NCBI RefSeq assembly: GCF_022512515.1
Contig: NZ_JAKWBK010000001.1
Location: 3,224,001 to 3,288,000, forward strand
DNA: 64,000 nucleotides
Reading direction: 5' to 3'
Origin: Paraniabella hibiscisoli
GTDB lineage: Bacteria; Bacteroidota; Bacteroidia; Chitinophagales; Chitinophagaceae
In this document: positions 40 through 26,921 of the stretch, in pieces
Layout of the letters: each line of letters opens with the position of its first letter
Numbering within the stretch: the stretch's first letter is position 1
Made by a program: the position numbers and the translations under genes
The notes under the pieces: generated by a model
Told to the model about the DNA's origin: nothing
Database searches by the model: none
The model's input: the letters and a program-made list of their open reading frames with translations, nothing else

Positions 40-3000
40 TTAATCGGGGCGTTGAAGTGTGAGGCTCATTAAACCGATAACCACTTCGTTCGTTAATGTT
101 TTTAAAGTAAGCGTACTTAATGTTTTTTCTTTATTGAGGGGAATATCAAGCAGCGTGCCTGCGCCTCCGTCAATGCCCATATTGGTAAACCCTTTAATGG
201 AACTGTAATGGCCATAATTTCTGGTTAGTTCTCCGGTTTTAAAGATCAACCGGTAAGGCTTAGGCCCGCTTTTAAAGGCAAAGCCGTCATCCATATAATC
301 CTGTTCTATCGGCCACCAGTTCACCGGGTTAACCAGCTCCAGCGAGTCTTTGGAGCCATCTGTGTATTGAATATGAATAACGCCGTTGGCCATCTGGCTT
401 TGCTGATGATTGGTAGTTCCCGCCATTAGTAAATAGGCATGTGAGGCGGAGCCGCTCAGGGAAACTTGCAGAGAGTCGGGGAAATTATCCCACCTGGAAG
501 TGTAAGCAATGTTTTTATTGGTGCCTATTGTAAACGGAATTCGACCCAGGCTAAGCTGCTCTTTGTTTTTAATACCATCATCACTGATCTCCGGTTGTAT
601 TAATGGGTAACACCAGTTGCCAATGCCCTGCCAGGGGATCTGTAAAGTGGTGCCTGCAGCACGAGGCGAGAGGTATTGATGCTTAAAAGTGTTGACAACG
701 TTATCATTCAGAATACCTGTGATATTGATTGCTTCATACTTTCCTGCACCTTTTACTTCCCAGTTGACAAAGTTGCTAATACTGGTCGAGCCATCTTCCC
801 ATTGAATAATGACTTTATTCGTTCCGGTTACAAGTAATGATTCTTTGATGGTGTAGTTTATTGTATTGCCTGAACCAACAGCAATAGCATCGGCATGACC
901 ATTGATCAGCATACGGCCTTTTTTATTGGAAGGACTGTGATTAACAATTTTTAATTGTGTCTTCGAACCTGATAGTGTTGATTTTATTGCTACTGCGGGG
1001 GCCACATTTATAATGACGGGTTGGATCCATACTGCCTGCCCTTGTTTTAGTGAAATCGATAAAGTATGGTTGCCGGTAGAAGCTCCAGCCAGCGTTAATG
1101 TCCGAGCTTTTCGCTCCATCGTTTTAAAGGCATTAGCTTCATCAGTAACAGATTGTATTTCCGCATTTGTGTAATGGAGCTGAAGTGGCGCTCCTTCAAT
1201 CGCGTTATAATTATAAAGCGATTGCTCAATTAACTCGCCTTCCCATTCTACTTTGACGTTATATGTACCAGAAGGCGGGGCCGCTATTTCAATGGCCGGA
1301 CAATGCAAAGCATTTGGAACCCGGTTGAAGGAAGCTTTTTTGCCATTTACCCAAACGTTTTTGATTCCATCTCTTCGTGCTGGTATCCTCAAATGGAGTC
1401 GCATCAATGTACTATATGACTGGCTTATATTATAACTGGATATATTGCCTTCTTCTTTGAAGTTGAAGGAGATATTGGGTAGGGAAAGTTCGGCGAATTT
1501 CCAATGAGATGGAAATCCCGGTTGTATATTCAATTGGTTGTTCAATGCATCGGGTACAATACCAAACAAACCTTCAGTAAGAGTTCGGGCAGCAACACCG
1601 ATCGGATCTGCAAAGTCGCGGTAAAGCTCGCCTCTTACAGCATCATAAAAGGAAAGTTGCTGAAAACCACCTGGACTGGAGCTTAGGTACATGCTTTCAA
1701 CAATACTATTTTTCCAGAGATTAAATGCGTTGTCGTTTTCGTGGGATTTCCAGTAGGCCCAGTGCGGTATGCAGGTTTTCTGCCAGCGCTACATTATTAA
1801 TGCTCCAGGTATAAGGTTGCCAGTTGGTAGTAGCCAGTAAGAACATGTTGTTAAACGGAAGGTCTTTTGCTTTTACCGGTATATGCGGTATAGTCTTATC
1901 AATGTAACGCAACATTTGAAATTGCTGCTCTGCTGTAGCTGTCCCCTCATCAATAGCGTGGTAAATGGTCCAAAGTCCCGGAGTTGTATGAAGAAGCTGT
2001 AATCCTTGCAGATCTTTATATTCTGCAAATACCCCCTTGTCTTTTGCCCAAAGCTTTTGATTCATGGCAGCCAGGATCTTATCGGCTTCCTTTTGATAAG
2101 GTGCCGGATCTTCATTCAATAATTGGGCAAGCTTTGCAGCCACTTTATTAGCCCGGTAGTTGTAAGCAGAAGAATGGGTTACTCCACCACCGCTGTATTG
2201 CAGCGCATCGCTGGCCCATATACAAGCATAAGCATCATATAAACCATCACCATCCGCATCATAGTTTCTTTTCTCCCATTGCAGGTGCAGTTGTAAAGCA
2301 GTCCATATTTTCTTTACATAATTAAGGTCGCCTGTATATTGTAAATGGGTCAATAACTGGTCCATAAAAACCAGGTTCATATCATAGTGGTGGGGACGTA
2401 TATCACCATTAGGATTACGGCAGATATATCCATTGCTAAACATAGCGGTTCCCATTTTTTCCAGTTGACGAGCAAAATGAAGGGCTGTGTCAGGTGTTAC
2501 GGGGCCGGGCGCTATTTGGGTAACCTGTGATTTCAGGTAGCTATCGAAGTGAAGCCTGGCACGGTCATGCCAACCCAAAGCGTCTGCTGCATAAGCGCCC
2601 CGCCAGGCCGGAAGCCTCATGCGCCAGGCGATAGCGCCGTGCATATAGCTGGGTTCTTCCCAAATAGCATCGGCTGCAATCGCTAATGCACTACCCAGCG
2701 GATTAATATAATCATCTGGCGTATTTAGCTTCACTCTTTCCGATATTTTTTACGGGCAGCTTCGGCGCGGGCAAATAATACCGGTGTTTCATTGTAATTC
2801 CTTTTTTATCCTGGCTTTCAACAACCCAGTAATAAATATTGTTAGATGACGCTTTAACGGAAGCTGTTATTAATGGACTTTTGGAACGTGTGTCGGAAGC
2901 CATCAATGTAGCTGGATTTTCCTGACGGTTCGCATCAGCTGCTCTTAAAACAGCCTGTACGGGAAACAAGCCGCTTATTAGTTTAGGTTTGTCTTTAGCA

Positions 3001-3698
3001 GCTGTATCAAATTGTTTTTTGCCGTATTGGATCTCGTATCGCTCATCTTCGCTTAAAGGCTTAGTAAAACCATAATACAGCCGGAAGCTATTTTTTTGGA
3101 CCTGGTATTGATTGTCCTTGCAATAAGCAGGTTGCAGGTAGAAAGATGATTCCGGATCTGCACCTATATCACCATCACGGCTGAACTTTTTACCGGTAGC
3201 ACCACCATAAGCAAGCATTAGCGATAGTCCTGCCGGGGTATTATTTGACTTGGTTTGTATAATCATGCCATCTGCATCTGCCAACGCCAATACTGTCACA
3301 GTAAGTGTACCATTATTCAATAAGGGGTCTTTGATCTCGTAGATCATTGAACCTGGCCGGTAAATAGTTTTTATATGAGTGGCTTCGGTAATCCATTTGC
3401 TTTTACCGTTTATCATAAAGCCGATCTTACAATTGCCACCCATGCCAGGCATGTACATGGCAAACTCAGGCAGGTCGCCGGCCTCCACCCGAAACCCCGT
3501 ATTGGTACCATACAATGCCCGGTTAAATTTCTTGGTACCACTATGTAAAACAAAATCTTTCCCTTCAGGCTTATAATGAAGTGTTCTTTCTTTGTTATGC
3601 CATGGCGCTGTGGGAGTTTGTGCTGGAAGGGTGTTGATACAATAAGTCAATAGTATCCCTGCAAGTAATGATAGTCTATATGGTAGTCTTAAACTCAT
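40..3698 (-). CDS. DUF4450 family exported protein, probable polysaccharide-active enzyme (frameshifted)
   Basis: About 1220 residues if read as one gene. It begins with a signal peptide (hydrophobic run ending near PAQTPTA) and continues in three reading frames with no gap in similarity. The first part (3698 to about 2795) is a beta-rich N-terminal domain; the second (about 2734-1721) is helical and rich in W, H and Y like an (alpha/alpha)6 barrel; the third (1692-40) is a C-terminal beta domain. Adding one A to the run near 2795 restores the reading NETPVLFARAEAARK, and a missing G near 2728 rejoins the next segment; a third break lies near 1700. The start overlaps the stop of the GH43-like gene by four bases (ATGA), implying translational coupling at the 3' end of the pectin operon. 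I recognise the DUF4450 pattern from Bacteroidota polysaccharide loci; substrate and reaction are unknown to me. The breaks look like sequence errors rather than decay. Confidence 0.7.
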
Positions 3699-4753
3699 GA
3701 ATCAATTTTAAATATAAACGAGGAGGCTGTCATAAATTGACCACCCTGGCTGGCTGTAAATAAATAGGAGGGCTTGCCATCTTCGAGCAATAGTTGTGGA
3801 CGCTCGAACCGGCCATAACGGGATAGGTGAGAAGGCGCAGGAGGTTGATTAATATACTTATCAGCTTCATAAAAAGCTATCTCAGGCTTGCTCCATTTTT
3901 TTCCATTGCGGGTATTCATAATAATACCATATTGATGGTTGTAGTAGCCCATATCCCTTGCCAGCATGTGAAAGCGGTTATTTTCATGCCATACAAAAGC
4001 GTCTTCCAACTGTGCGTTATTGCCTCTTGCTGAAAAATCAATAACCGGATTACCGGTATATTTTTGATAGGGACCTTCGGGTCGATCAGCAATGGCTAAA
4101 CCATATTTCCGGTTACCTCTCACAGAGCCACTGGCCGATTCATAATCCTTGGTGTTCCAGGATTTATAATATAAAAGATATTGCTGGTTGTGATGAATGA
4201 CAGAGGGATTGGTAGTGCAATGATCGTCCCAGCTACCCGCTTCGCCAGGTTGTAGTATGGGTGCATCCATTCGTTGCCAGGGTCCATATAAAGAATCAGA
4301 CACTGCCAGACCAACCCGTTTGGTATTGGTTTTGCCATTGCCATTACCCATATAATAGAGGTAGTATTTTCCATTGAATGAAGTGATAAAAGGATTATGG
4401 CAGGTAGTGGCATCCCAGTGGCCCGGCCGTGGTTGCAATACAGTTCCCGTAACACTAAACTTTGATTCGGGATTATCCGCTACTGCATGAGCGATCTCAC
4501 AACCATTGATCCAACCGCTCATTTTCTTTTTGGCATCCCATCTCGAAAAGAACACATGAATTTTACCATCGGGTCCTTTGATGGGTGTATTGCACCAAAC
4601 GTAGTATCCCTCCAATTCCAAAGCTCTACCCACCGGCTTCAATTTTTTGGCAAAGTCGCTAACCGGTGGATTAGGATCCAGGAATCGGCCGGGAAGTATA
4701 GAAATACCCAAGCCCGTTAAACTACTTTGCTGTATGAAAGCTCTTCGTTTCAT
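3695..4753 (-). CDS. Exported GH43-like five-bladed beta-propeller hydrolase
   Basis: Intact, 352 residues, within the usual range for single-domain GH43/GH117-type enzymes. The N-terminus (MKRRAFIQQSS, then a hydrophobic stretch) resembles a twin-arginine-type signal. Repeating beta-propeller blade signatures follow: GYYVWCNTPI near 50, HWDATTCHNPFI near 110, YYLYYMGNG near 125, SWDDHCTTNPSVI near 165, QLEDAFVWH near 235 and RFERPQLLLEDG near 320. Acidic residues in the NPFI, LEDAFVW and RFERPQ regions fit the catalytic positions of clan GH-F enzymes, but I cannot assign them firmly. It follows the PL1 gene by about 10 bases and overlaps the DUF4450 start by four, so it belongs to the pectin operon. 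A role in removing side-chain sugars such as arabinose or galactose from pectin is inference from context. Confidence 0.72.
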   Translation of the reverse strand: MKRRAFIQQSSLTGLGISILPGRFLDPNPPVSDFAKKLKPVGRALELEGYYVWCNTPIKGPDGKIHVFFSRWDAKKKMSGWINGCEIAHAVADNPESKFSVTGTVLQPRPGHWDATTCHNPFITSFNGKYYLYYMGNGNGKTNTKRVGLAVSDSLYGPWQRMDAPILQPGEAGSWDDHCTTNPSVIHHNQQYLLYYKSWNTKDYESASGSVRGNRKYGLAIADRPEGPYQKYTGNPVIDFSARGNNAQLEDAFVWHENNRFHMLARDMGYYNHQYGIIMNTRNGKKWSKPEIAFYEADKYINQPPAPSHLSRYGRFERPQLLLEDGKPSYLFTASQGGQFMTASSFIFKIDS

Positions 4754-4762
4754 TATTGTCGT

Positions 4763-6177
4763 TTAATGTTGTGGCATTACTGTAGTCAGCCCGTTGATAT
4801 AGACTTCGATATTGTAATAACCCGGATGAGTGCTACTCATCTTTAGCGCATCTGAAGAATTGTTAGGATTTAGTCCCATTTTCTTTTCTGCTTCGTCCGG
4901 AATACCGTCCTGGTCGCTATCTTTTAACGGTTTTGACCTTTCAAATTCACCCAGTCCGCCATTTGCTAATAGCAGATCGCTTTCTTTAAAAACAAGATTA
5001 CCTTTTTTACCTTTTGACAAAACTTCTGATAATATCAGATTATCAACCTCATCTCTCGAAGGAAGAACAGCTCCGGCCTGCTGAATAACCTGCCCGAATG
5101 CTTCAGCTGCGCTAACTTCTTTTTTCTGAAAGGATAGGCAAACGCTTCTTTTGCAAAATTGGAATCGTTAAGGCCCGGATATCCTTTACTATCCCTGGAT
5201 AGTACTAAACCATTTAAGCTCCCGTCTTTATTGCTGTCATAATAGTTCCCCGCTGCATAAAGATAAAAGGTTCCGGTTCCTCTTGATAATGGAGATTCCC
5301 TGGGTGGTGTGGCAGGGCCGGCTACAAAATAATTATTAATAATATTTACTTTAGATACGCCTGCTGAACCTCCCATAATATAGCCATCGCCTGAAACGGA
5401 GTGCCCGTAGTTGTTCCCCGCATTGCCCCAGTTATATACTACATTATTTACAAATTCGTTATAGCCTTTAACCTTAGGATTGCGCGTTTTATTACTGGCA
5501 TATAAGCTTTTTAAGATGCTTACATGCCCATTCATGGTTTGAATCAATCCACCAGCGGAATGGTTATGGATATTTAGTCCCTGGCTTATGATACAATGCT
5601 GAAGCGTGATGCTATCGGGCTCAAAGCCCCTGCGGTCCCAGTTGATAGAAAATACTTCATCCTGTCCCCATGAAAAGGATACATGGTCAAAGATAATATG
5701 CTTGCCGTTGGCAATACCTGATGCATCGTCATTGCGGGTAGCTCCTGCGTCAGCGCCCAGCCTGATCCGTATATAGCGGATTATTGAATGGTCGGCACCG
5801 GTAAATGAAACCTTTCTGCCGTATAGCGTTATACCTTTACCAGGAGCAGTTTGTCCAGCTACCGTAGTATAAGGCGCCACCGTTATATTAGATTGGAGCT
5901 TTATTATTCCAGTAACAGCAAAAACAACAAATCTTCCAGGCTTACTTACGGCATCCCTGAAAGAACCCACGCCATTATCGTTTAAGTTAGTAACAATATA
6001 TATAGATGGGCTGTTGTTACCTCTGGCGCCCTGAGCAAACTGGCCAAAGCCTTCGGCACCGGGAAATGCTTTTACCATATCAATGTTATTTATTTTATCA
6101 CTGATCCGGGCACTTCCCGTTACACCCAGGAGCAAATGAACAGATAATAATACGATTATAAGTTTCATAACAGGCAA
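4763..6177 (-). CDS. Pectate lyase, polysaccharide lyase family 1 (one frameshift)
   Basis: Secreted pectate lyase cleaving de-esterified homogalacturonan by Ca-dependent beta-elimination. After a signal peptide (start at 6177 or at the Met at 6168) comes the family opening AFPGAEGFGQFAQGARG, then parallel beta-helix repeats: GSFRDAVS, ITVAPYTTVAGQTAPGKG, IIRYIRIRLGADAG and IIFDHVSFSWGQDEVFS, which supply the acidic Ca-binding residues. The frame breaks near 5130; one extra base there reads PFQKKEVSAAEAFG and continues to a C-terminal segment with a DSDQDGIPDEAEKK calcium-binding repeat, typical of this Bacteroidota subgroup. Total about 471 residues. It sits 4 bases from the GH28 gene, and the two probably act together on the same backbone. 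Family assignment is firm; exact specificity is not shown. Confidence 0.88.
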
Positions 6178-6181
6178 ACAA

Positions 6182-7609
6182 TTATTTAGTCAGGGGGATG
6201 TTCATATTCTCGGATTTTTCGACAGCCAATGATTCACCATCACTACCTTTTATGGATACATTGCTAAACTTCCAGTCTTTGGCATTGCTGATAGTACCTG
6301 CCTTTGCACCGGTTATGTCAATATCGGTGAAGTTGAAATTAGTTGCCGGAGATTGAGAGATTCCGTTACAATAAACGATATGGTTGGTAATGCCGGTAGC
6401 CTTTATATTAGAAACGTATATATTTCTGAAAACGGGAATACCCTTTGAAGATGGATCTACCTTTTGTAATAACGTTTTCCAGTGCTGTGGAACTGAATCA
6501 TAATTATATCCCGCAGGAAGAAGCGAATTGCTGTATGCAGGATTCCAGTTCATGGTAAAATGAAAGGCATTGCGCACACTATCCATTTTGATATTATGCA
6601 GGTAAATATTTTCTACCGTACCACCGCGGGTAGTGGTAGATTTAATATGGAATCCTTGCCCGGTTTTAAAAGCCTGCAGATCGTAAGCTAACACATTTCT
6701 TATACCGCCCGATGTTTCGCTGCCAAGGGTCAACAAGCCACCGCCTTTGCGGGCAATATTTACGGATCACTACGTACTCTGTTGAGCGGTTTACCCGTAG
6801 CCCATCCCAGTCGCGCCCGGCTTTTAAACAAAAGTCATCGTCATTACAATCAATATCACAGTTCTCAATCAATACCCAGCTGGAGGAGTCTACATCAATG
6901 CCGTCTGTGCTGGGGCCGTGGCCATCTTCGTTGTTCCTGATCACTATGCCATCTACTGTTAACCGGGTAGAGTAGAGTAATTGAACCGTCCAGAAGCCTG
7001 CATTTTTAAAAGTAATACCTTTCAAAGTGATATCTGATGCGTTTTGTGTGAGAAAGGTTCGCACCCTTTTGGCATCGTAATCTACGATCCATCTTAATCC
7101 TTTGGGTTCATATTCTTTTCTCATCGCCCAGTATTTGTCCCAGCAAAACTTACCGCGGGCATTCACTATTCCCTTCCCGGTAACTGCCACATTGGATGCG
7201 TCAATGATGTTGATCAGTGCAGCAGGCCATTTCATCTCTATCCCAGCGATACGGGTGTCTATCTCAGGGTAGTCCTCCAAATTTTGAGAGCCTAACAAGA
7301 GTACTCCCTGGTCTATTCTTAAGTGTACATTGGACTTCAGAAAGATAGAACCGGTTACGTAAATTCCAGGCTTAAATGCTACAATGCCGCCTCCGGCTTT
7401 CGCACAGGCATCAATGGTTTTCTGAATAGCGCTGGTATTGATCGTGACGGTATCCGATTTCGCCCCGAAACTATTAACGTAAAATATTTTTTGCTAACCG
7501 GGAATTTCTTCGCACCTACTTCTTTAGCCCAGGGCAGATCGGGTAGTTGAGCCCGGGTATTGAGACTTCCCAGGAACATCAGTAAAAGAATAGTGCAATA
7601 TTTAGTCAT
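6182..7609 (-). CDS. Glycoside hydrolase family 28, polygalacturonase-like (frameshifted)
   Basis: About 476 residues after joining three frames. A signal peptide (MTKYCTILLLMFLGS) is followed by a pectate-lyase-3-like start: VNSFGAKSDTVTINTSAIQK, recovered by adding one A to the run near 7495. The right-handed beta-helix then carries the GH28 motifs STDGIDVDSS and CNDDDFCLKAGRD, which hold the catalytic aspartates, and FHIKSTTTRGG, the basic substrate-binding motif. Between them, where most GH28 enzymes have a Gly-His-Gly motif, the rejoined reading near 6725 gives ARKGGGLLTLGSETSGG, with no His. The break there needs one base removed or two added, so it is the least certain join. Likely substrate is galacturonan or a rhamnogalacturonan oligomer. 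It lies between PL22 and PL1 with spacings of 2 and 4 bases. Confidence 0.85.
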
Positions 7610-7611
7610 AC

Positions 7612-8848
7612 TTATTTTTTAGAAGATTTAATTTCTACTGCATAGATATTTTCCTTTCCTTCAAAATTGGCTCGGAAAATGATCCATTTCTGGTCAGGAG
7701 AAAAGTGAACATTAGGCTCCAAACGGTATTGATGGTGTTTCATATTCACCAGCTTTTCCGATCGAAAGCGATTGCCTTCAGGTTTGAAATAGTAGATCCA
7801 TTGCCCGTCTGGTGCTTTGGCTACGGCACCCGGATCTCCGCCGTCTCCTGCGAAAAACTTATTATCGGCGGAGCTGGTATAATGTACCGACCACTCATTT
7901 CTTTGCAGTTCATATTTTGTGGATTTGCCTGTGGCCAGTTCTACGCCAGCTACGAAAAGGTGGCTCCGCGTGGCTGTTGCAGGTCGAACCATATATAGCG
8001 CCCATCCTTACTTAACCATTCGTGCCCTGCAATCTCCATCGGCATGGTGCGCTTATGAATGAGCTTTGTTTCTCTACTGTTTACATCAATCGTCCATATC
8101 CTGTCCACTTTGTGCCAGGGGCCTTCATGGCAAAACATCAAAAGGGAAGGCTCTGTGGGAGAGAACTGTATATGATTCAACCAGGCACTATCCGTGAATA
8201 TTTTGTTGAGCTTTCCTGTATTGATGTCAATGGTAAATAATGTTCGCGGCAGCTTAGCTTCATAGATGAGGTTGAAGTAGCTGCTCTTACCCGGATTTTG
8301 TTTCAATATTTCCTTTTCTGTATCACTTACTTTAGCTCCTGCCAGCAAGGTTCCATTTGCATTAACGGTAGTGATGCGGCTTTAAAATCATCAGGAAATG
8401 TATAAACCAGTCTTGTCTTTTTTGTTGAAAGGTTCACCGCAAATACGCTGTCTTTTACCTGGTAAAATGCTTCATTTCGCTGAGTAGAAACGATCTCTCC
8501 GGTAATAGGCGATGATTGATTCGTTAATCGCTCTGATTGCAGGGTTTTAAGATCCAGTATATACAGTTGGCGATCTCTGGCGTTACTGTTATAAGTTTCT
8601 TGTTTTGCAGCGGCATCTACAGTTTTTTCAGTACTGTAGAAAACCATTTTATTTCCTGTAAAAGGATTGTTATGGAAATAAAAGCTCAGGTTACTACGTT
8701 CGTTATTGGTTAACCGGACTATTTTATGATGGGTGTCCGCATCAATCCATTTGTTGGGCATACCGGGACCTGTGGATAGTACTGGCTGTGCATTTAGTGT
8801 AGCACCAGTTGCAACGGATAATAAGAGGCAAAATATTTTTTTCACCAT
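7612..8848 (-). CDS. Oligogalacturonate lyase, polysaccharide lyase family 22 (frameshifted)
   Basis: About 412 residues, a seven-bladed TolB-like propeller that cleaves short oligogalacturonides to unsaturated monomers. It has a signal peptide (MVKKIFCLLLSVATG) and a first blade with NPFTGNKMVFYS. The family core is well preserved: NHIQFSPTEPSLLMFCHEG, HKVDRIWTIDVN and MEIAGHEWLSKDGRYIWFD, whose conserved His residues fit the PL22 Mn-binding and catalytic set. The third part holds VHFSPDQKWIIFRANFEGKE. Breaks lie near 8360 and 7965, each needing one extra base. It is 2 bases from GH28 and shares its operon. A signal peptide implies a periplasmic form, in contrast to the cytoplasmic enzymes of enterobacteria. 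Confidence 0.85.
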
Positions 8849-8923
8849 GGCAGGATGTTTAAAGTAATGAAGAGTACGGTAAAGTAGACAGATCAGGGTA
8901 CCGAACCGTCATGGTTCGTCCTG

Positions 8924-11065
8924 TTAAGGCATTTTCTGTAATCCTTCAAATTTTACTTTCCATTTGCCATCCTTAGGAATTCCCGGCAAAGTGCCTGTTG
9001 CCTGGTCGTAACCGGCACACATCATCGCAATAGCTGTTAGTAAACCTCCGTTGCCAGGTAAATATATGGTTAATCGGCCTTCCTGGTAATTATGGCCATT
9101 AGGTAAATAGGTATTGGTCTGGATGTCCATTAACAAAGCCTGTATAGCTTTTTCCGAATCACCTAGTCTTGTTGCGGTCATAGCTGTCATGGGGAAGTCC
9201 CAGCCCCAGGTCTCATGCCAGCTCCAGTTGGTCCATATCCAGTTAAAAGTATTCTGCATTAACCCAGTATTAAGCATGGGCGTTTGAGGCATCATACCCA
9301 GTGCGCCAAAAACAGAAGGATGATCAGTTTTATATTCTGGATTAGTGTAAGAGTCGGTTCCACTTTCAGTAAACAGGTATTTATTATCCTGAACAGGCAG
9401 AGGTGATAATCTTTTTACCACATCATCCCACTTGGAGTTTCTGGGTAATCCTAATCTTTCTCTCCACTGCTGTGCTATATTCAGCGCCCAATGCCAGTAT
9501 ACCAGCTCGTAGGTTGGATTAAAAGTTTCTTCTGCTTTAAAACGTTCCTGTGCCGGTATTAATCCTTTACCCAGCACATATTTTTGTTTAACGGAATCGA
9601 AGCGTGCAAAAGAAGCCATGAAGTCGGCAGTGCCAAATACCAGGTCCTTGTATTTATTCAATATGGATTTGTCTTTTTGTGCACGGTACAATAATTCTGT
9701 GAAATAGATAAAATGAGGTTGTTGCCAGATCAGGAAAGAGCCTATGGACGACGGAACTTCACGCCCTTTATTATCTGTCATCTTCTGCCAGCGAATACCC
9801 TCGTAACCCTGTCTTTTAGCAATGCCTTTGGCTATATCCTGTACTTTGAAATACCAATCCACGCTTTTTTGCATCAGCCCCGGACGGCCCCATAAAGCAA
9901 AATGCACCCCATGCCACCAATGCATTTCGAGGTGAGGTTTTCCATACCAGCTATTATAAGTAAGCCCCGTTTCCTGCGGCGGGTAGTCATCGGCACATTG
10001 TATGCGGGTTAAGTATTGCGATAAAATGATCCTGCGCTCCAGTTCAAAAGCTCTTTTGTCAATACTCCCCGAAAAGTCAATAGCACCACCACTTTTCCAG
10101 AATTGTTGCCAACCCTGTGTACTGCTTTGTTGTGTAGCAATGAAAGAGGGTAGAGTAGGCTGCACCTGTGGGCTAAATGAACAACTGTATTCGAAGCTAC
10201 TGCTACCGCCTGATGTAAGTGTGAAATAATGTGCTTGCTTCTCTTTAAAAACAGCTTTGCCGGTCCATTGCGATTGCACATAATAGCTGGTAGTATCCAG
10301 TATATGCTTGATCGTAGCAGTATTGGCTGCGTTATTGGTTAAGGTAGATTGATGCTTGTCGGCAGCTTCCCAATGATTACCCCTGTCGCCCCAGTCTCCG
10401 CTAGGGTAGGGCAATCTTACCCTTATCGCAATGCGTCCGTTTTGCAGTAGAGGGGATATTACTTTTACGGCAATAGCATCTTTGCTATGATGTCCATAAG
10501 TGGTGACCTGTACCGGAACGCCCTCTATAGAAAAGCTGCTATTTACACTGCCATTCCACATATTAAGTGACTGCCGGATATTTTTAATGTCGGCCAATGT
10601 GGCTAAGGAACCGTCTTTTTTGGTGATATCGAAACCTATATTGGCCAGGTGAAGCCTGTGCTCATTGATACGGAAATAATCGGCCGTTTTTTTGCTGATC
10701 TCCGGCCCCTGGTTATTTTGTACTGAGTAGGTTACATCGCGCCCGTTGAGGTGATAGGTTTTTAAAGCATCATCCTGTTTGTATTGCTGCGTATTGGGAA
10801 AAGCATGCCACCCCCAGGCGCTCTGTGTGCCGAGGGGAACGCCGTTGGCATAATCATCCGGGAAAGATTGCAGGCCGGTCACATCCACAGTAAAAGCAAA
10901 AGAGCCGTTACCTACCGAAAGAGAAGCCAGTGTATCGGCTTTATTAAGGCGAACGGTATGGCGCTCTACCAGTTGTTGCCGGTTAATACCGGCGGTTTTC
11001 TGCGCTTGTATTGTAGTGCTAAATAATGTTACTGCTAAAAGAAGGGTACTGCGAAACTTCATCAT
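8924..11065 (-). CDS. Six-hairpin glycosidase-like protein (GH65-like), specificity unknown
   Basis: Intact, 713 residues; the start is MMKFRS (11065 or 11062) and a signal peptide ends at IQAQKT. The N-terminal 300 residues look like a beta-sandwich with VGNGSFAFTVDVTGLQSF. The rest looks like an (alpha/alpha)6 barrel with rich aromatic motifs: GKPHLEMHWWHGVHFALWGR near 385, WQQPHFIYFTELLYRA near 465, FNPTYELVYWHWALN near 530 and WSWHETWGWDFPMTAMTATR near 630. This layout resembles GH65-type proteins, but I do not see the complete GH65 catalytic or phosphate-binding set. It follows SusD by 113 bases and precedes PL22 by 75. The context suggests an exo-enzyme removing a sugar from pectin fragments; that is inference. 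Confidence 0.6.
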   Translation of the reverse strand: MMKFRSTLLLAVTLFSTTIQAQKTAGINRQQLVERHTVRLNKADTLASLSVGNGSFAFTVDVTGLQSFPDDYANGVPLGTQSAWGWHAFPNTQQYKQDDALKTYHLNGRDVTYSVQNNQGPEISKKTADYFRINEHRLHLANIGFDITKKDGSLATLADIKNIRQSLNMWNGSVNSSFSIEGVPVQVTTYGHHSKDAIAVKVISPLLQNGRIAIRVRLPYPSGDWGDRGNHWEAADKHQSTLTNNAANTATIKHILDTTSYYVQSQWTGKAVFKEKQAHYFTLTSGGSSSFEYSCSFSPQVQPTLPSFIATQQSSTQGWQQFWKSGGAIDFSGSIDKRAFELERRIILSQYLTRIQCADDYPPQETGLTYNSWYGKPHLEMHWWHGVHFALWGRPGLMQKSVDWYFKVQDIAKGIAKRQGYEGIRWQKMTDNKGREVPSSIGSFLIWQQPHFIYFTELLYRAQKDKSILNKYKDLVFGTADFMASFARFDSVKQKYVLGKGLIPAQERFKAEETFNPTYELVYWHWALNIAQQWRERLGLPRNSKWDDVVKRLSPLPVQDNKYLFTESGTDSYTNPEYKTDHPSVFGALGMMPQTPMLNTGLMQNTFNWIWTNWSWHETWGWDFPMTAMTATRLGDSEKAIQALLMDIQTNTYLPNGHNYQEGRLTIYLPGNGGLLTAIAMMCAGYDQATGTLPGIPKDGKWKVKFEGLQKMP

Positions 11066-11178: not shown

Positions 11179-12846
11179 TTACCATTTGAAAGGTAAGTAC
11201 CAGTTTTCTTTATTCATCAGTTTGGCTCTTACCGTTGCTGCCGATGGATCATTTTGCTTTCTCAGTTTGTCGTAAATTTTATCAGCCAGGAAAGCCGGTT
11301 CGTTTCTGCGCAAGGCAATACGTAAAAGATCTGACCAGCGTCTTCCTTCAAATGCCAGTTCTAGGCCCGCCTCATCTACGATCATGTTTTCAATAGCAAT
11401 AGTACTGTCGGTCGTAATAGGAACGGTATACAAGTTGGCCCGTCCTCTCAAACCATTGTTTAAATACCAGTCTGCTGCCACCTGCGGATTATCGCTTTTA
11501 CGTGCGTCAAATAAATAAGGGCCACCCTCGTTGGTAATTCTGTTACCCAGTGTAGGTTGAATACCCTGGTTGACCAGGGCGTTGGCAATAGCCCTGTGAC
11601 CATCCCGGTTAGCCGCTTCGGCAAAAGCGAGGTGTAGTGCCGCTGCACGGTATAAAAACCATTTTTCGGTATTGGCATTATATCCATATTTGGACACCTG
11701 TGGTTCGCTACCCACCATGGTATAGCTAAACTTCGGACCGCGGGCATCATAAGGAAAATTGTTTTTTTGAACCTGTTTATTCCAGTTGTCAACTGCCTGT
11801 TGAGAAGGTTTGAGCAGGAAGTTAGTCGCAAACAGTTTGGTAAAAGGATTCATCGGCTGGAACAGGCTATTGTAGGGGAGATACCATACCCATTCGTATC
11901 CGAAAAGGCGATCTTCTGCGCGGGCAAATATCGAACGCCAGCCCTGGCTGTTATTGTTGATCAGTGAGTATTCATCCAATTCATTGTACCTGATATAGCC
12001 AACAGCTAAGTCGTTATTATCACCTTTGGAAGCACCTGTTATACGATAAGTAAAGAAATCTCCGGTTCCACCCGTTTCCATAACCTGCTTCAATACTGTA
12101 GCTGCTTTGTTATAGTCGTTGTTTTTTCCTCTCCATAAATACAATTCACCCAGCATTACTTTTTTGTTGATGAAGAATTTGGCTGTACTATAGCCGTCCA
12201 CGGTAGTAACCAGATCGGTGCCCGCTGCATAAGGATCCATATAGGGTAATGATTCCTGCAGGCTGATCAATGAGTCTAATAATGCGCTGAATGCAATTGG
12301 TTTGGCCGCATCTGATTGCATTAAGGTTTCCAGCGAGGTAACAGAAGGGATATGATTAGAGATATAGGGTACATTTCCAAAATGAATACCCAGCTGCAGG
12401 TATACCCAGGCTCTTAAAGAAGCCACATCGGCATAGCGCATATTATATTGCGTTTGGTTCAGCGTTTTTTGAGCCAGCATCTGGTTGAAATTGTATAGCA
12501 GGTCGTTGCAATTCAGTATAACATCGTAATAGGGTTTAGGATTGGCATACGGGTTACCTGTTTTAACATCGTGCCTGTTTAATTGGATCAGGTTTTCGTT
12601 GGCGTTGGTAGTGGTGGTTAGCAAATCAGCCCTTAGCTCATTTAGTACCACATAATTCTCCGCCAGCGTCAGAAAACGTCCGTACAACCCAATAATAGCG
12701 GCATCTGCATCGTACACATTACGATACATATTCTTTTCCTCCAGTACGCCTGGTGCATCTACATCTATCAACTTTTTGCAGGATGCCAACAAGGCGGTGC
12801 AAAGGGCAAAAGCAGTTAATAATTGTATAGTGCTAAGTTTTTTCAT
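11179..12846 (-). CDS. SusD/RagB-family surface glycan-binding lipoprotein
   Basis: Intact, 555 residues from the chosen start MKKLSTIQ at 12846. An upstream in-frame Met at 12885 would place 13 charged residues before the signal peptide and overlap SusC, so I reject it. The lipobox is LLASC at about residue 20, then the SusD opening KKLIDVDAPGVLEEKNMY. TPR-like helices include ASLRAWVYLQLGIHFGNVPYI, the typical arm next to the binding site, and the C-terminus carries LELAFEGRRWSDLLR, a signature of the family. It docks as a lid on the SusC transporter to capture oligosaccharides. Located 28 bases after the SusC stop; partner for uptake of pectic oligomers. Confidence 0.93.
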   Translation of the reverse strand: MKKLSTIQLLTAFALCTALLASCKKLIDVDAPGVLEEKNMYRNVYDADAAIIGLYGRFLTLAENYVVLNELRADLLTTTTNANENLIQLNRHDVKTGNPYANPKPYYDVILNCNDLLYNFNQMLAQKTLNQTQYNMRYADVASLRAWVYLQLGIHFGNVPYISNHIPSVTSLETLMQSDAAKPIAFSALLDSLISLQESLPYMDPYAAGTDLVTTVDGYSTAKFFINKKVMLGELYLWRGKNNDYNKAATVLKQVMETGGTGDFFTYRITGASKGDNNDLAVGYIRYNELDEYSLINNNSQGWRSIFARAEDRLFGYEWVWYLPYNSLFQPMNPFTKLFATNFLLKPSQQAVDNWNKQVQKNNFPYDARGPKFSYTMVGSEPQVSKYGYNANTEKWFLYRAAALHLAFAEAANRDGHRAIANALVNQGIQPTLGNRITNEGGPYLFDARKSDNPQVAADWYLNNGLRGRANLYTVPITTDSTIAIENMIVDEAGLELAFEGRRWSDLLRIALRRNEPAFLADKIYDKLRKQNDPSAATVRAKLMNKENWYLPFKW

Positions 12847-12874
12847 CTTTCGTTTTTTTGAATCTATTCTTCTA

Positions 12875-15800
12875 TTACAAACCAAATCTTACACCCAGTT
12901 GCATGTATTTGTACTGAGGTTCCAGGAAAGTGTCTACTCCCTGCCCATAAATACCGGATGCCGCACTAAACTCGGGATCATAACCCAGGTATTTGCTGAA
13001 TGTGATCAGGTTATTGCCGGTTGCATAGATATGTATGTATTTTAAAGCAGTAGGCTTGATAGGCACTTTATAGGAAAGGGAAACCGTTTTTAATCTCAGG
13101 TAAGATGCATCTTCGATCCACCTGTCGGAAAACCTGCTGTTCCCCATCGGGTCACCCCAGGTAGCTTTCGGCATGTCTGTTTGTTGACCATCGGTTCTCC
13201 AGCGGCGCATTACAGCTTCTGTCTGGTTGGCATAGCCACTTTGAGATTCCAATTGCCTGCGTGCATAGTTATAAGCATCTCCACCTACGCTAAACGTAGC
13301 TAATGCATCAAGTGTCCAGTTCCCATAAGTGAGTTTGGTATTAATACCCCCGAAGAAATCAGGGTTAGGGTTTCCAATTACCTGCATATCGTTTTCATCA
13401 ATAATCTTGTCCCCGTTGTCGCTGAAGATTACGTCACCACCACGGAAAGCAGTGGAAGAACCATCCGCATTTTTGGTCCTCAGGCCACTAGCCGCAGCGG
13501 CTGCATCAGTGCTGAAAACGCCATTGGTTTTATATCCATAAAATACATTAGGTGCATTGCCCACACTAGTAATTGTATTGCCACCTGCATAGCTGGTAAT
13601 AAAGCTGCCCGCTGGTAATTCGGTTACACTGGTTTTATAGGCTGCGATATTAAAACCCAGTTGCCATTTAAATTTATTTTGGTTGATTAGCAAACCGGTA
13701 ATGGCGGTTTCCCAACCATTGGTTTTCATTGCACCGCTGTTTTTTATGATGTATTCCTGACCTGTAATTGCTGGTCCGGGCTCGTATACGATCATATTGC
13801 TGGTCTTGTTGCTGTATACATCGGCAGTTATTTGTAAGCGTTCATTAAACAATGCAAGGTCCAGGCCCAGGTTTAATTTGGATACCTGCTCCCATTGTAA
13901 CCGCTCGTCAGCAATACCACCGCGTACCAGGCCTGCTACACCTAACAGGTTCTGCGATACATAATAGCTGCGGGCTGTATAGTTGCCAATATCATCGTTG
14001 CCGGTAATGCCGTAAGATACCCTTAATTTGGCCAGATTGATGGCAGGTGCTGCTGCCATAAAGTTTTCTGATGAAATGAGCCAGGCTGCGCCTACGGATG
14101 GGAAAACGCCAAACCTGCGACCGCCGATTTCAATACCCGCATCTTCAATTTTATGACCGAAACGGGAAGAAGCATCCAACGCATTAGCCATCGTAATAAA
14201 ATATTTATCGGCCATATTGTAATCGGCATTAACGTACATATTCAACCAGGTTGCCGATCCCAGGCTTCCGCCTATTTGCCGGAGCGTATTTAAGCCATAG
14301 CCCACGCCGGTAAGCTGGTCGGTAGCCGAGTTAAAGCCCAAACCGTAATCCTGCTCGCCGTTTGTTTTGTTATAACGTACACCTGCTTTAACATTCAGCT
14401 GGTTACGTTTATTAAAAGCTTTATAGTAACTGATCCTGGTATCATTAAAAGTATTGAAGGCCTTAATTACCTGTGCCCCCGATCTGTTCCGCGCTAAAGT
14501 GCCGTTAAACAAAGTGTCCGGCGCTATTCCTCTTTCAGGAATAAAAAAGTTTTCCCTGTTTTTCTGGCTGGTAATAGCAATAGTCGTTCCCAACGTAAGG
14601 CTATTAGATAGCTGATAGTTAAAGGTAACGCCGCCCACAAACCTGTAGCTGGTATTATTGCTGGTCATGCTCTGTATGATAGCAGCAGGGTTACTGAAAC
14701 CAAGGGTATCTCTGCTGGCCAACAGGGGAGATTCCAGTCCGTTATCGGCAATTACATGCGTAGGTAAAAAGGCGCTTTTACCAGCGATGTATAAATAGGA
14801 TTGGTGGTAGGGTTGATGCCCTGGTTCTTGAGATCGTTGCTGCTTCTGAAATACCCTATATTCGCGGAGGCTGTTAATCGTTTACTCAGGTTCAGATCGG
14901 CATTAAACCTCATATTATAGCGGTTCAGGCCGGTTTCTTCCAGTGGAGATTGGCTATTAAGATAACCTATGGATAATCCGTACTTAGCAATATTATCACC
15001 ACCGGTAATTTTCAGATACGCATTTTGTGTATATCGTTGACTAAAGACCTGATCTTGCCAATCGGTATTGGAATGATATCTATAGTATTCCGGATTAGTT
15101 ACGTCATCATTCATGTACGGCAGCTGCTGGATTTCTGAAGCAGATAAACCTTTTGACTGCAACATCTCCGACAAGTAGCTTCTGTAGTTACCCGCACCCA
15201 TAACCGGGATGGCTGAAGGAGCAAAAGATACACCTCCATACACAGCCGCATCTATTTTTGTAGCTTCTTCCCGGGCTCTTGCAGTAGTAACAATGATGAC
15301 CCCATTGGATGCTTTAGCGCCATATAAAGAAGAACCATCTTTTAATACTGTAATATCATCAATGTCTTTCAGGTCGATAAAAGAAAGAGGGTTATTGTAG
15401 TATCCTGAAATCAGGGAGTTGCCATAAGAGCCGTTATCGTAATACACACCATCCACAATAATCATGGGTTGGTTAGAAGCAAAAAGCGAGTTATAGCCTC
15501 TTAGAAAAAGGTCAGCGCCAATACCCGGTGTTCCTGACCGGCGAATGGACTGTAATCCTGCTACACGCCCTTGCAAATATGCATCAGGTGTTTCGGGAAC
15601 GTTGGCCCAGGCGCCATCCGTTTTAACAGTAGTTGCTGCGTTGGCAATTTTACTGCGCAACATAGTTCCCTGGGGAAGCGTTATTTCTTCGTAAAAAGAA
15701 GAAAAGCCGGTTTTCGACAATTCTATCGTAAGGTCCTTGCTGTTTTTTAAAGCAATCTCTTTTGCCTGGTAGCCATCAGCAGTTATTAATAAAGTGATAT

Positions 15801-16056
15801 CATTCCAGGGAGCATCAATAGTAAACTTCCCGGAAGTATCGCTTATGGCTGCAGCAAATTCTTTATAAGTAATGTTGGCACCCACCACAGGTTTGCCGGT
15901 AACTGCATCTCTGATCGTTCCGGAAACCGGGTTAGTCATTTTTGCAACAGCGGCCGGAACACGCTGGGGTGTTTGTTCCTGCGCATAAGCCGTAGTGCAT
16001 AAAACCGGGAAGCACATTACCGGCAGTATCTTCACTATATTAAATAATCTTCGCAT
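12875..16056 (-). CDS. SusC/RagA-family TonB-dependent outer-membrane transporter (one frameshift)
   Basis: About 1060 residues. It has a signal peptide, a carboxypeptidase-like regulatory domain (SGTIRDAVTGKPVVGANITY), and a plug domain with LQGRVAGLQSIRRSGTPG and LKDGSSLYGAKASNGVIIVTT, the classical SusC signature. The barrel follows in a second frame and ends with the aromatic barrel-closing residues LQLGVRFGL-like. The break near 14765 is repaired by one A, giving APFLPTHVIADNGLESPLL across the join. It imports the oligosaccharide bound by SusD using TonB energy. Preceded 50 bases upstream by a FAS1 lipoprotein and followed by its SusD. Confidence 0.93.
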
Positions 16057-16105
16057 AATCTGTTATAAGTGATAATAGTCGTAAATATTAGCCAATCAGT
16101 TTTCT

Positions 16106-17640
16106 TTAAAACACCGGTTCAAATCTTAAGTAATTCACCGTAAGATTAAACGGACGGCCGGTTGCTGTTGCAGGTGCCACTACCCTGATATACCTGGTAG
16201 CCGGGTTAAGCGTATAGGCCATGCCGTTAGGACTGCTTGCCGGGTAGGATAATAACCAGTTATATTCGTCATTGGTAAATTCTCCCAGGTAAAACTCTGT
16301 ATAAGTGTTCGCCGTTACGTTAACGGAATTTTCAAACCTGAGCGCCAGCGTATCTGCCTGCCTGTTGAATATCCGGACAGTATGGCTAAGCGTTGAGTCC
16401 GTGCCGTAAGTTCCATCTGCCTGGGGAGAGACTACTTTATCGTTTAACGACATCAGGTATACTTTGTATTTGGTGGTATAGAGCTGATTCGTATAATAAG
16501 ACACGTACCTGTTTGCGCCGCTGCTTCCCATATTCAGGTATATATCTTTAAAATTTGTACCGGTAAGCGGGTTCATTCTGTCCCGATAGAAAATAGTAGC
16601 TGAATTCGGAACTGAAAAATTATAAGGCGTTTCTCCCTCCACATATACCACCGGTATCTTTTCCTGTATTGCAATGCCAGATGTATTCATTACGTAAGCA
16701 ATACCATTGCTCAGCTTTTTACGGAAACAATAGAAGAGCGATTCATCGCGATCTTTACACCGAATTTGGATTCAAGAACGGCAGGTAAATTAGCTTCGGT
16801 ATACAATCCTCTCACTGCAAAATCTTTTACCGCCGCCCAGGAAGTGTTGGCGTTTGCTGTATCGATATTCGCGCCATTAAAATAGGGACGTAACCTTGTT
16901 TTTTCTGCATTAAAAGCATCATTGGTAAGCAATATATAGGTAAAAAGACTGTCTTCGTTGGCTACATCCAACACTTTTGTTTTAAACGTATTGATGGTAA
17001 CAATACCTGTACCTGGTTTATAAACCGGTTCGCCGGTAGCGGGATTAATACTGTCTAATTCAGCAAGATTGGGGTCCTGTCCTATATAATTCAGCGTGGA
17101 TATATAATTGTTTTGCGTGAAGCTGCTCCGGCTATCTAATATATATTCCCATATGCTTTGCAAAGGAGTGATAGCTTTGTCAATTTTGTGCAGCACTCCG
17201 TTGCTTACATAAATGTCACTTTCTGTAATATTCGCCTCGTCAAATTTCTTAGCTATAAAAAATACTTTCTTACCATTTAACAAGGGTACCCTCAACGAGT
17301 CAACGGCGTCACGGGTAAAGTAGGCATTCGTAGATATATGGTTTTGCAGAAACGCTTTCAATTGTGCGGGGTTTGATGTAACCGAACCGGGAAGAGATGC
17401 CAATGCATCATTACCCGGGGCAAAAACAGTTATGTTTTTGGAGGATTTCAGGAGGCTGTCCAGCCCGGTTTGTTCCACATAGTTGGCAAAGCTGCTTAAC
17501 TGGGGATCTTTTTTGATATGCTCCATTAATGTTTCAGATAGCTGCTGCTCCGGAAGGGCTATATGATCTTCCCATTTTTTGCAGGCCTCCATCGTTACAA
17601 GAAAAGTGAAACTAGCTACCAGAAACGAAAATCTTTTCAT
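16106..17640 (-). CDS. FAS1 (fasciclin) domain surface lipoprotein (one frameshift)
   Basis: About 511 residues. The lipobox is near residue 20 (VTMEAC), followed by a FAS1 domain with the box motifs ITVFAPGNDALASL and SNGVLHKIDKAI, then a second, weaker FAS1-like module around FTYILLTNDAF. After the break near 16716, one A added to the run rejoins SSIVSVKKLSNGIAYVMN, itself the closing motif of the second module. The C-terminal 190 residues are beta-rich and end in YLRFEPVF, resembling a jelly-roll binding domain. It is the first gene of the distal pectin unit, just before SusC. Its position matches that of SusE/F-like surface glycan-binding proteins, but a binding role is inferred. Confidence 0.82.
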
Positions 17641-17694
17641 CTATTTTTTTTAATATTCGGCTATAATTACTCCTGCCTGAAGCAAAAGAGTTAT

Positions 17695-17726
17695 AAAAGC
17701 GGTTCCGGTTTATTGAAACCGCTTTT
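17695..17726 (-). terminator. Hairpin terminator between two FAS1 genes
   Basis: Ten-base-pair inverted repeat AAAAGCGGTT / AACCGCTTTT (17695-17704 and 17717-17726) with a 12-base loop. Read on the minus strand the stem is followed by T-rich sequence. It lies 23 bases after the stop of the upstream FAS1 gene (17749) and 54 bases before the next start (17640), so it probably ends or attenuates transcription between the two SusCD units. Confidence 0.7.
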
Positions 17727-17748
17727 TATTCATCTGTATTATTAAGGC

Positions 17749-19450
17749 TTAGTAAACGATCTTACCATCCGGGTCAAAACGAGGACTGGTTTGGCTTGGC
17801 CAGTCAATAGGTATAAAATGTACCATATCGAAATTACAGTCAGCGTTCTGGCCCGACAGTAGTTCAAATTTGATCTTATGACGACCAGTAGAAGTAACAT
17901 CCACAATACCCAGCATACGGCCTACGGTTGAACCAGATGGTGAAGTGCCTGCCCACCATTTCCAGCCAAGCGCTGCCAGGTTGGCTTCGTCTTTCGCAGC
18001 TACCGAAGAGATTTTTTATGGAACTCAATCAATGCGCTTGTAAGCGGTGCTCCATTAAACGAAGCCTGAACCGCACTCACTGTGCTGTTTTGCGTGAAGT
18101 AGCAGAACCAAACCTTGTATTTTCCTTTAACTAACAAAGGCGTAGTAAACTCGATCCAGTTATTGCCCGAGCAGGTACCTGTGTTTTCGGTGTTACTGGA
18201 AGAGCGACCCATACCCATTTGCCAGTAATCTTTCAAATAACCACCCGATGCCACACGATATTTCAGGCAGCTTTTTTCCCATTTCAGGTCTTTGAAAGTA
18301 TTGCCATCACCAAAGTCAAACAAATAGGTTTTTTTACCATAGATGGCACTCAACCTTGTTAATTCTGGCTGTGTGGAGCAAAGATCCCAATACACAGCAA
18401 ATGGTTTTCTCTCTTTAATGGCAATGCCTCCCATCGCGTGATGCAAAACACCATTGGTGGCGCTTCTATCACTGGTCGCAATATTCAGTTCCACACCAGG
18501 CTCATGTACCAGTCCATTAATTGTGGTATAGCTATCATCATTGATCAGTACTTTATTATTGATGAACTTGTTGGTCAATACTTCAAGAGGCGCTAATGTT
18601 TCGTGAGAAGTAGCGGTTACAATATCTGCCAGGAACTTAATATCCGGCAGGATATGATAGGCCACATATAGATACAGCCCGTCAGTAGGAGAAGTGGGAT
18701 TGCCCGATTTGGAATACTTTGTTTTAAGCGCTGTGAAATTATTGATGCCTGAGTCCAGGTAGGTTTGGTTTTTCTCCGCAATAACAGTATACCATAAAGT
18801 ATCGCCATTAGCTACAGCCTGTGTGTTCAGTTTGTTAAAAAGGCCTGTTGCTTTTAAAGCTTCTGTAAAAATGGAGTATTCCGGATCTTGCTCCAGTAAT
18901 TTTGCCAATGTCAGTTCCGTAGGCTCTAAAACATTGTCGATAACATGAATAATGCCGTTACCCAGTTCAATATTTTGTTGTAGTACTTTGCCCTGGCGGT
19001 TCACTATATAGGAGGATATACCATCTACATTAGATACGCTGGTGATCAGGTACTGACCGTAATCTGTAATAGAGGGTAGCTTTCCATCATTGAAGTTATA
19101 GGTATACACTTTTTCTCCCAACAAGTGAAATTTCAAAACATCCTGCAATTGTTCTTTTGTAAAAGATTCAATAGAGGCAATGTTTTTTCACGCATGTATT
19201 TATCTATTGCCTCGTTCGTAGGCGCAAAAAACGTATAGGTTCCATACGTGTTAAAAGCGGTGGTATATCCGGCTTTGTCGATCAGTGTTACCAGCTTGGT
19301 AAAACGCGACAATGAATCATTTTGCAGGTATTGCAAAATGTTAGGATCGTTGGAAGTGGCTTCCTGCAACTGAGCTTTCTGGCAACTGCTTAAAAACAGG
19401 CTTGAAGCCGCTGCAAGCATTACAATAAGTAAGTAGGCAAACTTTTTCAT
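17749..19450 (-). CDS. FAS1 lipoprotein with C-terminal jelly-roll-like domain (two frameshifts)
   Basis: About 567 residues. The lipobox is LFLSSC, then a FAS1 domain with YTFFAPTNEAIDKYM and GNGIIHVIDNVL, and a second FAS1-like module (LWYTVIAEKNQTYL; ATNGVLHHAMGGI). Breaks near 19178 and 18014 are each repaired by one A; the first restores YMREKNIASIESFTKEQ, the second restores FHKKISSVAAKDEANL. The last 200 residues form a distinct beta-rich module (RVASGGYLKDYWQMGMG; GKYKVWFCYF; RHKIKFELLSGQN; MVHFIPIDWPSQ), which recalls the DUF5108-like domain found after fasciclin modules in this phylum; I am not certain of that number. It follows SusD by 11 bases and precedes a terminator. Confidence 0.82.
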
Positions 19451-19461
19451 CCTCTTTAATT

Positions 19462-20968: not shown

Positions 20969-20992
20969 TTCGTTTTTCTTAGTGTTTATACA

Positions 20993-26518: not shown

Positions 26519-26921
26519 CGTTCTTATATTATTTTCAGATCAAATAAATTTTTAAAAAACGTATTTAACAGTAGGTGTCGGCTAACCAGGCGAAAAAAAG
26601 ACCGTTACAAATCTCTTTGCAAAATGCATTACCCTGATCCCGGAAATTGTCTACAATAAAATACTCAATCGTTTACAAGCAGGCAAGCGTCAACTCTCAG
26701 TTACAATTATCATGCTTTGTGCTGCGAATATATCCCGCCCAATTGCTACCACTGTCCTGAGCCATCCTGCTTTCTTTCATATTTTTATGCAATCGATTGC
26801 GAAATTGTAATTAATACAATTCTTATTCATTATGAATATCTTAGCTGGCAGGATGCCACAGGATGCCTGCGTTTGGGATTTGCTTTAATATTGACCCTGT
26901 AACGGTTCAAATAAATTTGCC
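26519..26921. other. Divergent intergenic region, pectin operon / GH105
   Basis: About 400 bases between the FAS1-SusCD operon and GH105, with no coding sequence that I can support. It is AT-rich and carries one clear palindrome (26789-26800, separate entry), so it probably holds both promoters and a shared control site. I could not identify a convincing -7 TAnnTTTG box at a sensible distance from either start. Confidence 0.5.
26788..26801. promoter_or_regulatory. LacI/GalR-type operator candidate
   Basis: The 12-base palindrome GCAATCGATTGC, extended to TGCAATCGATTGCG, has the central CG and flanking A/T of LacI-family operators (13 of 14 positions of TGnAAnCGnTTnCA). It lies 121 bases before the GH105 start and 270 before the FAS1 start. 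No LacI-type gene is in the window. Confidence 0.45.

Follow-up and report, generated by a model that had tools for sequence, protein, structure and literature searches.

Rhamnogalacturonan-I (RG-I) ranks with the most complex polysaccharides of plants, and some genes in the bacterial loci devoted to it have as yet no assigned function. One of these lies in a pectin operon of Paraniabella hibiscisoli, in the window studied here (the whole analysed stretch of 64,000 nucleotides), and raises the question of what kind of glycosidase it encodes and which bond that enzyme might cleave. The reading that we favour, with a probability of roughly 0.55, is that of an inverting exo-alpha-glycosidase which trims rhamnogalacturonan oligosaccharides in the periplasm, with E507 as the acid, a base other than that of GH65, and an alpha-L-rhamnosyl bond as the leading guess for the substrate.

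The gene and its operon

The target gene occupies positions 8924-11065 on the minus strand as an uninterrupted ORF of 713 residues, predicted to encode an exported six-hairpin glycosidase with an N-terminal beta-sandwich and an (alpha/alpha)6 barrel. A genome of the same genus (G119) encodes a homolog with 94% identity over the whole length, and relatives with 35-42% identity, aligned over 92-99% of the query, occur in nine plasmid records; a chance ORF can therefore be discounted. The plasmid hosts are Streptomyces, Arthrobacter, Paenarthrobacter, Nonomuraea and Asticcacaulis, and the product is called a "hypothetical protein" wherever it is annotated. A single full-length copy is found in the genome itself, where the next match has an E-value of 0.29 over 47 residues. 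Among 195 genomes of the same taxonomic family, 47 match the target, and 44 are counted as full length once the fragments in G113, G189 and G164 are left out; in a sample of the phylum the gene was found in 20 of 296 genomes, the present one included. A scan of the collection gave at least 589 relatives among 597 pattern matches, and 80 loci were retained from these for the context counts given below. The family is widespread in Bacteroidota and also occurs in some Actinomycetota and Alphaproteobacteria. The N-terminus is hydrophobic and, by eye, resembles a Sec signal peptide, and a crude pattern finds such an N-terminus in 67 of 78 aligned copies, which points to export in Bacteroidota, most likely to the periplasm.

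The transcribed order in the window is SusC, SusD, target, PL22, GH28, pectate lyase, GH43 and DUF4450, all on the minus strand. On the upstream side lie an intact SusD-like glycan-binding protein (11182-12861; PF07980, 91% identical to the gene of the same-genus genome), a SusC-like TonB-dependent transporter in two frames (12878-16062; plug domain on one piece, both spanned by the same-genus gene) and a fasciclin-domain protein in two frames (16109-17640, minus strand; PF02469 and same-genus mapping). Downstream follow a PL22 oligogalacturonate lyase-like gene in three frames (7615-8893), whose pieces fall below or over the PF14583 cut-off and to which an intact same-genus copy maps, a GH28 gene in two frames (6188-7514; 91-93% identical to a same-genus protein of the GH28 cluster, with PF00295 found on one representative), and a pectate lyase-like gene in two frames (4787-6180), mapped by its same-genus counterpart and with a representative matching PDB 9buj, "Pectate lyase", at E 3e-27. 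The operon ends with an intact GH43-like gene (3698-4759; cluster label PF04616) and a DUF4450 protein in three frames (46-3698; PF14614 at 2799-3452), both also mapped from the same genus. Upstream of the operon are more SusC/D genes and, beyond them, a divergent gene for a PF07470 (GH88/GH105) unsaturated glycuronyl hydrolase-like protein in several frames on the plus strand (26898-28046; cluster label and same-genus mapping). The first-pass annotation had described an intact gene lying between SusD and PL22, and both points hold.

Compared to the intact same-genus copy, the frames of most operon genes are split (46-24286 and 26898-28046), with the target, SusD and GH43 whole, and the completeness of the genome is 83%. 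The split frames suggest an error-rich assembly rather than gene decay. In the same-genus genome the gene order is identical and the frames are intact, with an additional SusC/SusD pair between the target and PL22, and the order was likewise found in Niabella aurantiaca (L058).

Sequence family and predicted fold

The target protein had no match among Pfam, NCBIfam and PDB sequences, and none to PF03632, PF14498 or NF053734 at E-values up to 10. A strong match to a characterized family, which would have spoken against the earlier description as an unassigned six-hairpin glycosidase, was thus not found in these three databases. When 15 diverse family members were compared, PF03632 was matched by five (best E 2.6e-4), PF14498 by four (best E 4.4e-5) and the kojibiose hydrolase model NF053734 by five (best E 1.3e-9), and a family profile weakly reached seven GH65 chains in the PDB (E 6e-4 to 4e-3, best 6.1e-4). 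With no match of its own and weak matches of its relatives and profile, the target is, as judged by sequence, a remote GH65 relative outside the curated GH65 models of Pfam and NCBIfam. The GH95 model PF22124 was absent among the families matched by the 15 members at E-values up to 10, and the GH78 and GH106 models PF17389 and PF17132 gave no match to the target in Pfam. Novelty was here judged against Pfam, NCBIfam and PDB in place of CAZy/dbCAN, so that the family could already carry a number. According to the available text of De Beul et al. (PMC8537180), GH65 in CAZy was split into 22 subgroups, many of them then uncharacterized, and given these subgroups CAZy may already place the target family within GH65.

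An AlphaFold model built with 78 sequences (mean pLDDT 95, pTM 0.93) has the full-length architecture of GH65-type proteins, with an N-terminal beta-sandwich followed by the (alpha/alpha)6 barrel. The closest fold is that of the kojibiose hydrolase FjGH65A (PDB 7fe3), a GH65 alpha-1,2-glucosidase ranked first by both Foldseek (E 1.5e-25) and VIA-align (Z 38.4, rmsd 2.8, 580 aligned residues, 16% identity). Human PGGHG (Z 31-35, best 34.6) and GH65 phosphorylases (Z 25-32) come next, followed by GH95-type alpha-L-fucosidases (Z about 24-29.5) and GH139 (Z 28-29). The GH65-like barrel proposed from the sequence is thus confirmed by the model and the fold comparison, and a common fold alone proves no function.

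Active site

Two alignments of the family were used, one of 15 diverse members and one of 78 sequences, comprising the target and 77 of the 80 loci (L105, which is partial, L129, which is overlong, and L131 were left out). The GH65 comparison set consisted of eight of the 12 kojibiose hydrolase loci from relatives, all over the curated cut-off. In hhalign, the 15-member profile aligned to these eight sequences with a probability of 97 and E 3.4e-11, and the 78-sequence profile with a probability of 79 and E 1.5e-5. E507 (codon at 9545-9547, minus strand) fell on the acid glutamate of GH65 in the hhalign profile alignment and also in an alignment to kojibiose phosphorylase, and is invariant in 15 of 15 diverse members and 78 of 78 copies, making it the predicted general acid. 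Its counterpart in FjGH65A is Glu472, described as catalytic in the available text of PMC10316084. Between the numbering of that paper and that of the PDB chain an offset of three fits both Glu472 and Trp391-Glu392. In human PGGHG, the PDB titles E430Q and E574Q mark the same two glutamates in the alignment, with a numbering offset of one.

The second catalytic glutamate of GH65 (E574 of PGGHG by the PDB titles) falls into a six-residue gap in the target profile alignment; in FjGH65A it is E616. The target thus appears to have no equivalent of the GH65 base, and its own base would be unlike that of GH65. Two columns past the gap, position 662 is Asp or Glu in 69 of 78 copies; as it is Ala or Ser in the other nine, and acidic in just eight of the 15 diverse members, it is an unlikely base for the whole family, and a possible alignment error around it leaves a small doubt on the absence of the GH65 base. 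Invariant in all 15 diverse members and all 78 copies are, among others, E365, H378, E380, H385, R394, K428, H451, E507, E520, H582, D623 and N672. By its invariance D623 (codon at 9197-9199, minus strand) is a candidate base, or else a sugar ligand. The first-pass annotation had seen no assignable catalytic pair; this holds for the base, and the acid half can be assigned by alignment.

The same conservation bears on a catalytically dead protein with a binding or accessory role, a reading that the lack of a canonical base would allow, and which we consider very improbable with the acid and many other polar residues invariant across phyla. A glycoside phosphorylase seems just as improbable. Many of the matched GH65 structures are phosphorylases, no GH65 base is recognizable in the target, and the copies on the Paenarthrobacter and Nonomuraea plasmids (L033 and L034) have no signal-like N-terminus by eye; the hydrophobic N-terminus of most copies nevertheless argues for export, and phosphate is not kept high in the compartment of exported proteins.

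The sugar-binding positions differ from those of GH65 as well. The Trp-Asp position of GH65 is L379-E380 in the target, and the Lys-Gln pair aligns with K579-T580, two residues that vary within the family; both GH65 positions presumably bind glucose. With no curated match, no equivalent of the base and altered positions around the sugar, a plain assignment as a GH65 enzyme was dropped. A divergent GH65 alpha-glucosidase of the kojibiose hydrolase type, serving a minor glucoside in pectin loci, would explain FjGH65A as the best structural match, the relatives matching NF053734 and the common acid, but it is an unlikely reading, as the target itself matches neither PF03632 nor NF053734, the segment bearing the GH65 base falls in a gap and the glucose positions are replaced. 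GH65 hydrolases such as FjGH65A and human PGGHG share the two-domain fold and the acid glutamate with the target at about 15-16% identity, and are set in an alpha-glucan context, whereas the target is found in a pectin context, not one of dextran or starch. In the available text of PMC10316084, the residues of the +1 subsite in GH65 are Trp391-Glu392. These align with K428-M429 of the target in a weak local alignment; R425 is present in 78 of 78 copies, but in 13 of the 15 diverse members, with Trp in the other two. For the exo-alpha-glycosidase that we favour, K428 together with R425 would suit an acidic +1 sugar, e.g. galacturonate.

Alignment of the family to 12 GH95 proteins ran almost end to end with the 15-member profile and was non-significant with both profiles (probability 1.4% and E 0.037 for 15 members; probability 2.0% and E 0.024 for 78 sequences). 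In this non-significant alignment the GH95 motifs are roughly collinear with the target: the second Asn of NIN is matched by H378 and the second His of HRHxSH by H582, while W622 and D623 lie on the Trp and Ser of TGWS, and P670 and N672 on the Asp of FQIDGN and the Asn of DGNF, respectively. In GH95 the base is presumably the Asn of NIN, held by the Asp of FQIDGN, and the Glu of SPEN presumably the acid. The base-pair positions of GH95 would thus correspond to H378 and P670 in the target, and the SPEN acid aligns with A505, which precedes E507 by two columns. GH95 was dropped as the home family, given the non-significant comparison and the displaced acid. The GH95 catalytic domain gives thirteen matches in the genome itself, and several of these are fragmentary.

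Association with rhamnogalacturonan loci

Some of the 80 loci are cut by contig ends, and their neighbor genes were labelled from one representative per cluster; "GH105" is the label of the PF07470 cluster and "CE12" that of the GDSL cluster. At least one gene for a GH105-type enzyme, PL11, GDSL esterase, GH106, GH28, PL22 or DUF4450 was found in 64 of the 80 loci, and at least two of these pectin genes in 53. The most frequent were DUF4450 (41 of 80), GH28 (39), GH105-type (35), PL11 (25) and the GDSL esterase (24), and the gene next downstream of the target is GH105-type in 16 loci and PL11 in 11. GH43 and GH2 genes are also frequent neighbors. Genes of L-rhamnose catabolism were found in 14 of the 80 loci; among them the rhamnose isomerase cluster has no Pfam match and is named by gene position alone. 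A fused aldolase-dehydrogenase of the target loci fits RhaEW as described in the available text of PMC3870299.

The other 16 loci carry none of the listed pectin genes. Four are short stretches of 4.5 to 13.5 kb (L062, L072, L078 and L128), three have a gene of the pectate-lyase cluster, which is off the list (L089, L090 and L131), one has GH43 alone (L101), and in eight no pectin context was recognized (L070, L094, L111, L117, L121, L129, L130 and L136).

Co-occurrence was counted across the 195 genomes, 44 of them with the full-length target. PL11 was found in 31 genomes with and four without the target (p 2e-21, kinship ignored), the weak matches in G117 and G147 having been dropped from 37 genomes, and PL22 likewise in 31 with and four without (p 2e-21, kinship ignored), counting those 35 of the 48 PL22 genomes that passed the cut-off. 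Five of the 44 target genomes had neither PL11 nor PL22 over the cut-off. The PL11 rhamnogalacturonan lyase of the P. hibiscisoli genome lies in two pieces on another contig (G000:C2:247479-248935). These data support a link of the target family to RG-I and pectin loci well beyond the operon in the window.

GH106, a known alpha-L-rhamnosidase family, was found in 41 genomes with and 39 without the target (p 2e-16, kinship ignored). In the 41 of 44 target genomes its gene is separate from the target, often tens of kb away on the same contig, often also in the same gene cluster. It was likewise present in all seven genomes checked individually (six Chryseobacterium and one Epilithonimonas), which ruled out the target as a substitute for a missing rhamnosidase there; in each of the seven, the single PF17389 match over the cut-off is a frame of 1190-1210 residues, equal in length to DUF4450 proteins. 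With GH106 this common, the target fills no obvious gap. The presence of a rhamnosidase thus counts against a second one, and rhamnose remains our first guess as to the bond cleaved, without implying that the step is otherwise lacking. Compared to the GH78 and GH106 alpha-L-rhamnosidases, the target possibly cleaves the same type of bond, without a match in sequence.

The rhamnosidase supplied by GH106 also lends weight to the removal of a side-chain sugar of RG-I or arabinogalactan, such as alpha-L-fucose, alpha-L-galactose or arabinopyranose. GH95 and GH139, whose substrates are sugars of the alpha-L-fucose type, are next in fold, and the frequent GH43 and GH2 neighbors fit the same idea. 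We nevertheless regard it as a possible but clearly weaker explanation, as the commonest partners are backbone enzymes, rhamnose catabolism genes accompany the target and the base pair of GH95 is not recognizable in the non-significant profile alignment. The first-pass annotation had suggested rhamnogalacturonan side chains; the link to rhamnogalacturonan stands and extends beyond the operon, and action on side chains is possible only, since with PL11, GH105-type, GH28 and esterase partners and rhamnose catabolism in 14 loci a backbone sugar fits at least as well.

The DUF4450 partner

DUF4450 shows the closest association, being found in 36 genomes with and none without the target (p 7.5e-32, kinship ignored), and absent from eight of the 44 target genomes. 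It lies directly upstream on the same strand in 31 of the 80 loci and directly downstream in five. Among the 36 genes, 23 are within 35 kb of the target, four are farther away on the same contig and nine are on other contigs; the copy in L058 lies at 17322-20975. A model of one member (L100:6326-9886), based on an alignment of 30 of the 41 proteins, was most similar to GH78-type rhamnosidases (Z 28), in a tied ranking with GH94, GH116 and other six-hairpin enzymes. DUF4450 is thus a second six-hairpin family in RG-I loci that lacks an assignment; it shares loci with the target and differs from it in family and in length (about 1100-1250 residues). No mention of DUF4450 was found in the PMC literature searched, which leaves most subscription papers outside its scope.

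Proposed function

In the proposed route, lyases and GH28 would release oligosaccharides from RG-I and neighboring pectin, and SusC/D would import them. The target would then remove the non-reducing-end sugar from the imported oligosaccharides, most likely in the periplasm. E507 would act as the general acid, and the best candidate for the base is D623, or else a water molecule held by H378, E380 and D623; the bond cut would, as a leading guess, be alpha-L-rhamnosyl, with galacturonate at +1 held by K428 and R425 assisting. An activity of any member of the target family was not found in the literature searched, mostly open papers on pectin PULs, GH65 and rhamnose regulons in the text available.

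In sum, this is a GH65/GH95-like glycosidase family, unassigned in Pfam, NCBIfam and PDB, and strongly linked to RG-I and DUF4450. Whether it forms a new GH family within the GH65/GH95 fold group, with a base unlike both, and together with DUF4450 accounts for one or two steps still missing from RG-I breakdown, is a claim that we rate at about even odds; if true, it would add a new enzyme family and another catalytic solution within this fold. The surprise is moderate: orphan families are to be expected in pectin loci, and it is the breadth of the family, its close partner and the missing base that stand out. At least 589 relatives, the company of backbone enzymes and the presence of the target in 36 of 36 DUF4450 genomes make it a focused target for enzyme discovery.

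Relatives outside Bacteroidota

Plasmid context was read from the annotation in four of the eight other types, with the Asticcacaulis record H9 left out. On two Asticcacaulis plasmids the target adjoins pelA; a TonB receptor, GH88, an oligogalacturonate lyase (PL22) and kduI are no more than about 11 kb away, and DUF4450 lies on the other side of the target; in a third record pelA again adjoins the target and DUF4450 is about 6 kb off. The actinobacterial settings are of another kind. The plasmids of Paenarthrobacter and Arthrobacter D5-1 carry near-identical clusters of an MFS transporter, the target and GH3, and that of Nonomuraea encodes a divergent LacI, then GH1, the target, an ABC binding protein and a permease, followed by GH1 and GH2. 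On the Streptomyces plasmid GH97 was the sole recognized neighbor, and in Arthrobacter StoSoilB13 (L167) no partner was recognized, with N-termini judged by eye. In the first three of these actinobacterial records the target is thus paired with a transporter and with GH1 or GH3, an arrangement to be expected if small mixed glycosides are taken up and hydrolyzed step by step. Between the beta-glycosidase setting there and RG-I here, alpha-L-rhamnose suits as the common sugar, as do other alpha-linked sugars. The plasmids of Paenarthrobacter ureafaciens (L033) and Arthrobacter sp. (L168) are both typed as conjugative and share protein accessions in the cluster, which suggests horizontal transfer.
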